Assembly: GCF_002002925.1 (NCBI RefSeq)
Contig: NZ_CP019511.1
Span: forward strand, 496,001-560,000
DNA from: Sphingomonas sp. LM7
GTDB taxonomy: Bacteria > Pseudomonadota > Alphaproteobacteria > Sphingomonadales > Sphingomonadaceae
Reading direction: 5' to 3'
DNA length: 64,000 nt
Position 1 is the stretch's first letter. Every line of letters starts with the position of its first letter. A program made the translations under genes and the position numbers. The notes under the pieces are model-generated. The model had not been told where the DNA came from. It searched no databases and saw only the letters and a program-made list of their open reading frames with translations. Positions 49,425-51,413 of the stretch are shown here, piece after piece.

Positions 49425-49438
49425 CGGCATTCCTTCAA

Positions 49439-49495
49439 AATTCCTCCCCGGAACGGGGAGGGGGCCCGTCCGAAGGACGGTGGAGGGGGCCCCGC
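49439..49495 (+). repeat. Two-hairpin repeat, left copy flanking the DUF559 remnant (I-L)
   Basis: TTCCTCCCCGGAACGGGGAG-GGGG, then CCGTCCGAAGGACGG and TGGAGGGGGCC, form the same two hairpins as elements J and K. It lies inverted relative to I-R at 49734-49795 and overlaps the 3' end of the remnant frame. Confidence 0.75.
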
Positions 49496-49733
49496 TCTCG
49501 GCAGGCGACGACAAGGCCGGTGATCACGGCACCGAGATCCTTCAGGATCTCCACAGCGGGAATGCGTAGCGTCAGATAGCCAATCTGCGGGTTCTGCCGC
49601 CGAAACCGGAAGCCGTCCGGTTCTTTCCTTAGCTGCTGCCAGAGCAGCACTTCGGGGAAGGACATTTGCTTGCGGTCGGCGCGGGCCTTCTTCACATCCT
49701 TGATCGGCGCGCGTAGTGCCTTTGGCTGGCGTG

Positions 49734-49795
49734 GGCCCCCTCCGCCACTCGCCTTAGGCGAGCGGCGCCCATCCCCGTTCCGAGGAGGAATTCTA
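49734..49795 (-). repeat. Two-hairpin repeat, right copy flanking the DUF559 remnant (I-R)
   Basis: On the minus strand it reads GAATTCCTCCTCGGAACGGG-GATGG, then GCTCGCCTAAGGCGAG and GGCGGAGGGGGCCC, matching I-L. It provides the first residues of the remnant frame (SPRIPPRNGDGRRSPKASGG). Confidence 0.75.
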
Positions 49796-49811
49796 GGGCT
49801 CGCCTGCATCA

Positions 49812-51413
49812 TCACATCCGGAACACCCCGAACGCCGGCCGCTCGGGGATCGGGGCATTGAGTGTTGCCGCGAGGGCTAGGCCGAGCACGTCGCGCGTCT
49901 GCGCCGGATCGATGATGCCGTCGTCCCATAAACGCGCGGTGGCGTACCACGGATTGCCTTCGTCCTCGTATTTCGCGCGGATCGGCGCCTTGAACGCTTC
50001 GGCCTCCTCGGGCGTCCATTTCTCGGCGTCGCGGTGGACCGTCGCCAGCACGCTCGCCGCCTGCTCGCCGCCCATCACCGAGATGCGGCTGTTGGGCCAG
50101 CTGAACAGGAAGCGCGGCGAATACGCCCGCCCGCACATGCCGTAATTGCCTGCGCCGAAGCTGCCGCCGATCAGCACGGTAATCTTGGGGACCGTCGCGG
50201 TGGCGACGGCGGTGACGAGCTTGGCGCCGTGCTTGGCAATACCTTCGGCCTCGTACTTGCCGCCGACCATGAAGCCGGAGATGTTCTGGAGGAACAACAG
50301 CGGAATGCGGCGCTGGCAGGCGAGTTCGATGAAGTGCGCGCCCTTCTGCGCGCTCTCCGAGAACAGGATGCCGTTATTGGCAATGATACCGACCGGCATG
50401 CCCCAGATATGCGCGAAGCCGCATACCAGCGAGGTCCCGTAGAGCGCCTTGAACTCATGGAATTCGCTGCCGTCGACGATCCGCGCGATGACCTCGTGCA
50501 CGTCATAGGGCGCGCGGACATCCTCGGGGACGATGCCGTAGAGCTCTTCCGCGCCATATTTGGGCGGGCGGGGATCGAGCAATGCGATGTCGGGCGTGCG
50601 GTCCGCAGGCAAGTGGCTGACGATGTCGCGGACGATGGTCAGCGCATGCTCGTCGTTCTCGGCGACATGATCGACCACGCCCGACTTGCGGCCGTGCAGG
50701 TCGCCGCCACCCAGATCCTCGGCGCTGATCACTTCGCCGGTCGCGGCCTTCACCAGCGGCGGCCCGGCGAGGAAGATCGTGCCCTGGTTGCGGACGATCA
50801 CGCTCTCGTCGCTCATCGCGGGGACATAGGCGCCGCCCGCGGTGCAGCTGCCCATCACGCAGGCAATCTGCGGGATGCCGAGCGCGGACATGTTCGCTTG
50901 GTTGAAGAAGATCCGGCCGAAATGGTCGCGGTCGGGGAACACCTCGGCCTGGTGGGGCAGATTGGCGCCGCCCGAATCGACGAGATAGATGCAGGGCAGT
51001 CGGTTGGCCTCGGCGATCTCCTGCGCGCGGAGATGCTTCTTGACCGTCATCGGATAATAAGTGCCACCCTTCACCGTCGCATCGTTGCAGACGATCATGC
51101 AGGTGCGCCCCGAGACCCGGCCGATACCCGCGATCATCCCCGCGCCGGGGACTTCGCCTTCGTACATGTCGCAGGCGGCTAGCTGGCCGATTTCGAGGAA
51201 CGGTGAACCGGGATCGAGCAGCCGTTCGACTCGCTCGCGGGGGAGGAGCTTGCCGCGGCTGGTATGACGTTCACGCGAAGCTTCCGGTCCGCCGAGGGCG
51301 GCCTGCGCGACATCTGCGCGCAAACGCTCGGCCAGCGCGCGGTTATGCGCGGCGCGGGCGCGAAATTCCTCTCCTTCGAGCGATACCTTGGTCTCGAGCA
51401 CCGGGGCGCTCAT
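49812..51413 (-). CDS. liuB: Acyl-CoA carboxylase carboxyltransferase (beta) subunit
   Basis: A 533-residue carboxyltransferase. N-terminal half: GKLLPRERVERLLDPGSPFL, CNDATVKGGTYYPMTVKKHL, CIYLVDSGGANLPHQAEVFP. C-terminal half: GIIANNGILFSESAQKGAHF, RRIPLLFLQNISGFMVGGKY, GGSFGAGNYGMCGRAYSPRF and SRISVMGGEQAASVLATVHR. The YYPMTVKKHLRAQEIA and GNYGMCGRAY segments match methylcrotonyl/geranyl-CoA carboxylase beta subunits rather than propionyl-CoA types. It is first in the minus-strand cluster that ends at 44944. Confidence 0.92.
   Translation of the reverse strand: MSAPVLETKVSLEGEEFRARAAHNRALAERLRADVAQAALGGPEASRERHTSRGKLLPRERVERLLDPGSPFLEIGQLAACDMYEGEVPGAGMIAGIGRVSGRTCMIVCNDATVKGGTYYPMTVKKHLRAQEIAEANRLPCIYLVDSGGANLPHQAEVFPDRDHFGRIFFNQANMSALGIPQIACVMGSCTAGGAYVPAMSDESVIVRNQGTIFLAGPPLVKAATGEVISAEDLGGGDLHGRKSGVVDHVAENDEHALTIVRDIVSHLPADRTPDIALLDPRPPKYGAEELYGIVPEDVRAPYDVHEVIARIVDGSEFHEFKALYGTSLVCGFAHIWGMPVGIIANNGILFSESAQKGAHFIELACQRRIPLLFLQNISGFMVGGKYEAEGIAKHGAKLVTAVATATVPKITVLIGGSFGAGNYGMCGRAYSPRFLFSWPNSRISVMGGEQAASVLATVHRDAEKWTPEEAEAFKAPIRAKYEDEGNPWYATARLWDDGIIDPAQTRDVLGLALAATLNAPIPERPAFGVFRM

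Follow-up and report, generated by a model that had tools for sequence, protein, structure and literature searches.

The window analysed here, a stretch of 64,000 nt taken at its full length, belongs to the complete 4.16-Mb genome of Sphingomonas sp. LM7, which holds eight DUF559 matches, six of them intact. Past the 3' end of a liuB-like gene, its minus strand carries a single frame of 125 aa (Table 1) that matches the DUF559 profile PF04480 with 25.2 bits, above the curated cut-off of 20.6 (E 1.5e-5), the match being confined to residues 41-80, which correspond to profile positions 5-45 of 109. An intact DUF559 copy occupies the same chromosomal site in a close relative, G112. Aligned with that copy, the DUF559 part of the window frame has one gap of 129 nt (43 codons), in frame and near position 49586, and the rest of the gene is close to its G112 counterpart. 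The gap sits at an imperfect short repeat, which reads CAGATTGG in the window and GAGATTGG in G112, and it takes the catalytic core (...LDF...IEVDGE.H...). Deleted with it are the catalytic D, E-x-D and H, which are invariant in 35 relatives picked for their open frames, so that the window copy should be inactive. Ordinary decay of a single copy by slippage is the best reading of this loss. An earlier note, made from the letters of the window, had described an in-frame loss of the core of about 50 residues; frame and core loss stand, whereas the length comes to 43 residues when measured against G112. On the downstream side, the NTF2-like gene likely starts at an ATG near 49425, and in several genomes with an empty site it begins a few bases past liuB.

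Both ends of the decayed gene consist of inverted copies of one two-hairpin repeat, as the same note had observed. The outer pair of arms (49439-49468 and 49763-49792, 30 nt) is 87% complementary and the inner pair (49479-49492 and 49733-49746, 14 nt) 93%. We scored flanks by local alignment of one flank with the reverse complement of the other, counting scores of at least 25 as inverted; the window locus reached 32, and none of 228 random intervals scored above 27. The claim that these repeats also occur solo elsewhere is weakly borne out within the window, the rest of which has two poor matches to the outer hairpin (at most 5 mismatches in 19), at 60592 and, inside a related purine-stem hairpin, at 54919. 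In the whole genome, a broader hairpin pattern was found 130 times, as opposed to 3 times for a reversed-pattern control.

Table 1. Features at and around the decayed DUF559 gene (positions in the window)
Feature	Position	Strand	Basis and remarks
Decayed DUF559 (PF04480) gene, 125-aa frame with 43-codon internal in-frame deletion	49435..49812	-	Profile match and G112 alignment
Surviving N-terminal DUF559 part (profile 5-45 of 109)	49573..49692	-	Profile match
Surviving C-terminal part (LTLRIPAVEILKD...VACRE)	49498..49575	-	G112 alignment; ends placed by hand
Approximate junction of the 129-nt deletion (compared with G112), at a short imperfect repeat	49586..49587	-	G112 alignment
liuB-like gene	49812..51413	-	Name from the earlier note; in the genus, insertions recur at its 3' end
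NTF2-like gene, downstream of the site	48948..49514	-	Name from the earlier note; listed from first TTG
Arm at 3' end of gene	49439..49492	+	Outer hairpin CCTCCCCGGAACGGGGAGG at 49443-49461
Same arm, second hairpin and G-rich tail	about 49466-49480 (hairpin), about 49479-49489 (tail)	+	By eye
Arm at 5' end of gene, inverted copy	49733..49792	-	Outer hairpin at 49770-49788
Same arm, tail and second hairpin	about 49735-49746 (tail), about 49748-49762 (hairpin)	-	By eye
Related purine-stem hairpin elsewhere in window	54914..54936 (genome 550914-550936)	+	

Inverted repeats around DUF559 genes

Whether DUF559 genes are flanked by inverted repeats more often than chance had been put forward as a check on the earlier observation, and they are. 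Within the genus, once 8 duplicate loci had been dropped, 64 of 79 distinct DUF559 loci scored at least 25, compared with 4 among 155 other genes called from these stretches; at a score of at least 30, these numbers were 59 and 2. The 15 loci below 25 include several from a lineage that has the 5' arm only. A flank match of at least 25 in direct orientation was present in 20 of the 79 loci. Inverted flanks were likewise found in 17 of 30 loci of a class-level sample as opposed to 6 of 150 random intervals, a few scores, such as that of L109, stemming from long weak alignments. In a set of 21 chosen genomes, they surrounded 44 of 52 intact entries, or 43 of 51 when one place listed twice (L256/L259) is counted once; five weak matches were counted apart, and two loci of this set (L009 and L038) also belong to the 79 of the genus.

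The association extends beyond the class. In a multi-phylum set, consisting of the best 80 of 574 DUF559 relatives less 5 incomplete loci, 58 of 75 loci had inverted flanks (57 of 75 without L335, in which runs of N inflate the score) and 17 scored below 25. Further loci from the phylum gave 12 of 28, and random intervals around both collections jointly 19 of 618. The multi-phylum set comprises Xanthomonas, Lysobacter, Variovorax and Thiobacillus as well as genomes or bins recorded as Rickettsiales, Gastranaerophilales, SAR202 and Omnitrophota, many of them metagenome bins whose assignment we took as recorded; it appears to share genomes with loci of the other samples, so the sets overlap. The same motif recurred in some of its genomes with a GC content of 35-48%. 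Chance and GC content were considered as causes and ruled out by the random intervals, the control genes and the low-GC genomes. Nothing could be learned from a control that cross-paired left and right flanks of different loci, since orthologous loci have flanks in common; one in ten of its 114 pairs reached at least 64.

Within about 200 bp of the gene, a purine-stem hairpin occurred on the 5' side of 67 and on the 3' side of 63 of the 79 genus loci, compared with 103 of 2,938 background windows. Such a hairpin reads the same as its reverse complement and by itself says nothing about orientation; once the tails are included, the inward orientation prevails (e.g. at 34 5' ends and 26 3' ends of the 79 loci, versus 10 ends that point the other way). 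Of 156 loci whose 3' arm is recognisable, 131 have a DUF559 frame that runs into it, which accounts for C-termini such as SPxPLPxxGEG. In four loci (L016, L017, L018 and L032), the arms are longer arrays of stacked units that combine inverted with direct repeats (direct scores of 79-99).

Repeat load and subtype follow the gene

DUF559 is present in 113 of 121 genomes of the genus. The eight genomes without it hold 2, 2, 3, 3, 3, 5, 8 and 10 exact hairpins, as opposed to a median of 63 in the 113 others (quartiles 26-131, range 1-423; p 5e-6), with reversed-pattern controls at 0-2 per genome. Hairpin load and DUF559 correlate with a Spearman coefficient of 0.67, or 0.63 once two hairpins per gene are subtracted. 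For 70 genomes placed on a rough tree from 300 bases of liuB, independent contrasts gave r 0.67 (p 3e-10), with the same sign in 47 of 67. At least 16 of the 113 DUF559 genomes hold 12 hairpins or fewer, down to a single one, and are thus as poor as the genomes without the gene. Together with the inverted flanks, the scarcity of repeats where the gene is missing makes DUF559 a candidate partner that spreads or maintains the repeat.

Not only the number of repeats but also their subtype goes with the gene. Reducing 184 entries to 173 loci left 28 without a typed arm, 55 with one and 90 with both; in 88 of these 90, both arms share the same stem subtype. On a tree of the 173 DUF559 domains, which has few columns and many open forks, the arm labels (five, including 'untyped' and 'mixed') needed 38 changes compared with a mean of 90 after shuffling. 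Besides, we picked genomes for an extreme bias towards one stem, P1 or P2, in whole-genome counts, to which each DUF559 gene adds at most 2 copies. P1-armed DUF559 genes were found in 9 of 10 P1-rich and 0 of 11 P2-rich genomes, P2-armed ones in 1 of 10 and 10 of 11, respectively, and a third arm type, E, in both groups.

Kinship with intrastrand triplex motifs

Many of the repeats, inverted pairs included, fit the published consensus CCCTCNCCCN3-6GGGNGAGGGN3GGGNGAGGG with gaps relaxed, or variants of it. This is the intrastrand triplex motif TM/TMECO, earlier termed PIT, which was described in more than 260 genomes, with 23 TMs in E. coli MG1655, among them five inverted pairs (Holder et al. 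2015, PMC4666352). The arms in the window, which belong to a diverged subtype and include a second hairpin, show no literal match to the TM consensus. In the parts of that paper available to us, no mobility gene or function is reported near the motif, and a word search of its main text returned neither 'DUF' nor 'nuclease' (Holder et al. 2015). Nor did we find an open-licence PMC paper that links DUF559 to these repeats by title or abstract. DUF559 as the gene partner of triplex repeats, with codes specific to each lineage, is what we propose here and what sets our account apart from the published one.

Among 299 genomes of the phylum, the TM consensus (gaps relaxed) occurs in 49 of 80 with a strong DUF559 match (E<1e-10) and in 16 of 219 others; when any DUF559 match is admitted, the figures are 52 of 108 and 13 of 191, all being raw genome counts uncorrected for taxonomy and base composition. 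The 16 genomes that have the TM without strong DUF559 include G434, G354 and G161 with 131, 41 and 35 copies, respectively, and these three and G491 hold 27-131 exact copies with no strong DUF559 match. Conversely, 31 genomes of the phylum have strong DUF559 without an exact TM; other codes were seen in single loci only.

The tails of the repeats extend this likeness. In 383 arms with asymmetric stems, the G-rich tail mirrored the whole stem in 262 cases and repeated it directly in 67, compared with 12% mirrors and 15% copies when tails were exchanged between stem types; repeated arms had been dropped, and the remaining ones come from related loci and are not independent. Stems of type AGGGGAGGGG form an exception, with direct tails in 10 and mirror tails in 3 of 13. 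A mirror tail is what a triplex would lead one to expect, but not a duplicated protein site, and the third strand of the TM likewise mirrors its purine stem. The match of stem and tail says that the two are apparently kept together by selection or descent, triplex formation in cells being a separate matter. For TMECO, the fold was seen in vitro in single strands, whereas duplex DNA and footprinting in vivo did not show it, as far as the available parts of that report go (Holder et al. 2015), and in our repeats the triplex is read from the mirror in the sequence. We regard three points as well supported: that repeat and gene are associated, that subtypes match and that the repeats are akin to triplex motifs.

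GC-rich hairpins might instead act as terminators around any small gene, in which case the association would be compositional. The repeats we read do lie near gene ends, but this view is contradicted by the control genes, of which so few had inverted flanks, by the recurrence of the motif at low GC content and by the covariation of stem and tail, and the available text of Holder et al. (2015) cites a lack of promoter or terminator activity of the motif. We consider such an incidental association hardly credible.

In E. coli, TM number 9 of the 23 in K-12 lies between fabI and ycjD (Table 1 in Holder et al. 2015, as far as available). The latter gene (b1289) is annotated as DUF559 (E 1.4e-49), and by eye a decayed hairpin abuts its stop codon; no matching arm was seen on its 5' side. 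Of 5,426 E. coli genomes, 3,365 carry ycjD. In the one ycjD-free strain we examined, STEC299 (L399), an unrelated TetR/RND efflux cluster stands beside fabI, and the boundary of the ycjD-free site was not readable there.

The nuclease and the turnover of its sites

DUF559 is a family of unknown function. Its fold is of the Vsr/PD-(D/E)XK type and not that of a Y1/HUH tyrosine transposase. A list of structural neighbours contained many PD-(D/E)XK-like folds of middling Z, from which 3hrl, 3r3p and Vsr alone were used; the nearest with a known function are the homing endonuclease I-Bth0305I (PDB 3r3p), with a homologous EDxHD catalytic domain, and the repair endonuclease Vsr (PDB 1cw0/1vsr), which is alike in fold. 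Unlike I-Bth0305I, the DUF559 gene lies between inverted repeats. The ratio dN/dS had a median of 0.12 in 14 DUF559 pairs, which shows purifying selection on the protein.

The earlier note had also suggested a comparison of orthologous liuB junctions. In these, liuB may be followed by an intact or a decayed gene, by the repeats alone or by neither. In 70 genomes in which we read the site past the liuB stop, DUF559 stands in the orientation of the window in 11 (the window included) and in the opposite one in 13, the two orientations representing different protein lineages, and more lineages exist besides. Where the hairpin pattern caught it, the first hairpin lies 18-28 nt past the stop, except in G069. 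One genome (G102) has a gene-less unit, and three (G043, G090 and G101) have single or collapsed hairpins. The states of the site needed 14 changes on a liuB tree of 30 genomes, not far from the mean of 15.7 after shuffling, and sister genomes differ; for instance, G040 has a full unit and G090 one hairpin between near-identical flanks. No cutting, excision or insertion was observed.

These site states, together with the match of DUF559 to I-Bth0305I in sequence and fold, bring to mind homing, i.e. a free-standing DUF559 endonuclease that invades pre-existing palindromic repeats by cutting a solo copy, with its gene copied in by break repair and the repeats spread by another agent. A 2022 paper, in the part available to us, assigns a DUF559 gene to the EDxHD homing family. 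The liuB site, moreover, is home to more than one DUF559 lineage, in either orientation, and some other genomes have a GIY-YIG nuclease unit there. The contrast between G040 and G090 fits an invasion as well, yet the single hairpin of G090 could equally be a deletion product, and homing leaves unexplained why the number and the code of the repeats track the presence and the lineage of DUF559. We take homing to be possible, if unlikely.

The GIY-YIG nuclease gene follows liuB in seven genomes: L198 (G021), L194 (G001), L193 (G006), L181 (G022), L190 (G064), L196 (G080) and L204 (G107). L198 was assigned by PF01541 and the rest with a profile made from six of these genes. A different palindrome, CATGCTGAACTTGTTTCAGCATG, accompanies them, on both sides in four of the seven, and in G021 and G001 a left arm of the DUF559 type is still in place.

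Away from the genes, the repeats of the window's own genome form 18 neighbouring hairpin pairs at distances of up to 200 bp, compared with 0.6 expected, as counted over the 93 non-overlapping places among the matches listed, of 130 hairpins. In the doublets that we read by eye, the tails point inward. One doublet (L094) has a truly empty orthologous site in G101 and G041 and a shortened one in G112; a second (L102) has an empty site in G041, where a third (L103) corresponds to a single hairpin. As to the genes, no recent within-genome duplicates were found in a subset of copies (114 pairs in 51 genomes), the best pair sharing 71% identity. DUF559 is rare on plasmids and phages, with 44 of 72,556 plasmid records and 3 of 50,697 phages, one query having been used for each.

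A classical insertion sequence, the whole unit of which would move by cut-and-paste transposition, would account for the inverted ends that tightly bracket one gene and for the truly empty sites of solo doublets. Close within-genome duplicates were missing among the loci compared, however, few DUF559 genes travel on plasmids or phages, and no target-site duplication was visible in the pairs read, where intergenic divergence is too high to exclude one; we hold this explanation to be very improbable. What multiplies appears to be the short doublet and not the gene, as in the RAYT pattern, and for this reason we prefer a RAYT-like reading to an insertion sequence.

The rarity on plasmids and phages, the purifying selection and the Vsr-like fold could also point to a host repair nuclease that resolves structures formed by triplex repeats, which would then be tolerated only in the presence of DUF559. 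A Vsr-like role has indeed been assigned to VsrA, a DUF559 protein of Caulobacter, according to the available text of PMC12907096. Such a caretaker, though, would need neither a place between two inverted copies of its own repeat subtype nor several diverged lineages per genome, nor would it need turnover at one site, and we judge it quite improbable.

A putative partnership like that of RAYTs and REPINs

The reading we favour, and consider probable, is a partnership that resembles RAYT/REPIN systems but consists of an unrelated enzyme and an unrelated repeat. It builds on the architecture, subtype match, co-occurrence, mirror covariation, site turnover and purifying selection described above, and as the best overall explanation it makes the window locus the probable remains of a single unit in a widespread system of two parts. 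One part is the small Vsr/EDxHD-fold nuclease, DUF559, the other a family of inverted repeats in which a purine-stem hairpin is followed by a G-rich tail that could fold as a third strand. Each DUF559 lineage tends to have its own stem/tail code at both gene ends, and the same code is scattered over the genome, mostly without a gene and often as short inverted doublets. The hairpin/triplex end, once extruded or single-stranded, may be recognised by its own nuclease and nicked or cut there, whereupon break repair or replication would copy short doublets to new places and swap units at existing repeats. The mode of action would then be that of RAYT/REPIN, except that a nuclease of the homing type takes the role of the HUH transposase. 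While we infer both the cleavage at the repeat and the role of the nuclease in its dispersal, the most economical mechanism would be that DUF559 cuts its own repeat and thereby spreads it, and the earlier suggestion that these proteins mobilise or maintain the repeat family would fit this view.

REP sequences and RAYTs had already served the earlier note as a comparison, which is apt apart from enzyme and repeat, both of them unrelated. In the parts of the RAYT and REPIN literature available to us, the likeness comprises a unit of one gene with an inverted palindromic repeat on either side (Nunvar 2010, PMC2817692; Bertels and Rainey 2011, PMC3116915), dispersed repeats that often form inverted doublets (here 18 pairs versus 0.6), a gene tree that tracks the repeat type, and fewer repeats in genomes without the gene, tenfold on average in Nunvar (2010) and 2-10 versus a median of 63 here. 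The enzymes differ, DUF559 being a Vsr/EDxHD-fold nuclease and RAYT a Y1/HUH tyrosine transposase, and so do the repeats, a hairpin with a mirror tail as opposed to a palindrome tagged with GTAG/CGTC. Moreover, DUF559 has several diverged lineages per genome, and RAYT genes are described as 'always' lying between inverted repeats, which does not apply to DUF559. The Caulobacter CIR elements are likewise two-arm intergenic repeats of Alphaproteobacteria; in the available text of PMC2229807 they are about 110 bp long and carry GANTC, by which description they may differ from ours.

A bolder version, to which we give slightly less than even credence, would see DUF559 proteins as structure-guided mobilisers that read an intrastrand triplex of their own code, both at their gene ends and at copies scattered over the genome, and thus as a repeat-spreading class with a Vsr/homing-endonuclease fold in several phyla and, with YcjD, in E. 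coli. The GIY-YIG nucleases between palindromes of their own at the same site would then be a second, parallel case, and a 'small nuclease plus private palindrome' a general selfish element of bacteria. If DUF559 is indeed the gene partner of the triplex repeats, a widespread DUF would gain a function and the RAYT/REPIN way of life a second instance, unrelated to the first, and the model would be testable in a laboratory strain, using YcjD and the 23 TMs of MG1655.

Six sphingomonad DUF559 genes (L045, L055, L057, L067, L073 and L076) presumably lie between fabI and aroC, both neighbours having been matched, and three more (L056, L074 and L075) presumably beside fabI, judged from the fabI match alone. 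E. coli ycjD likewise adjoins fabI. In the MG1655 locus (L398), a stretch at about 2300-2370 that resembles the 3' end of ycjD is repeated downstream of the gene, before the TM, and is perhaps the remnant of a second copy.
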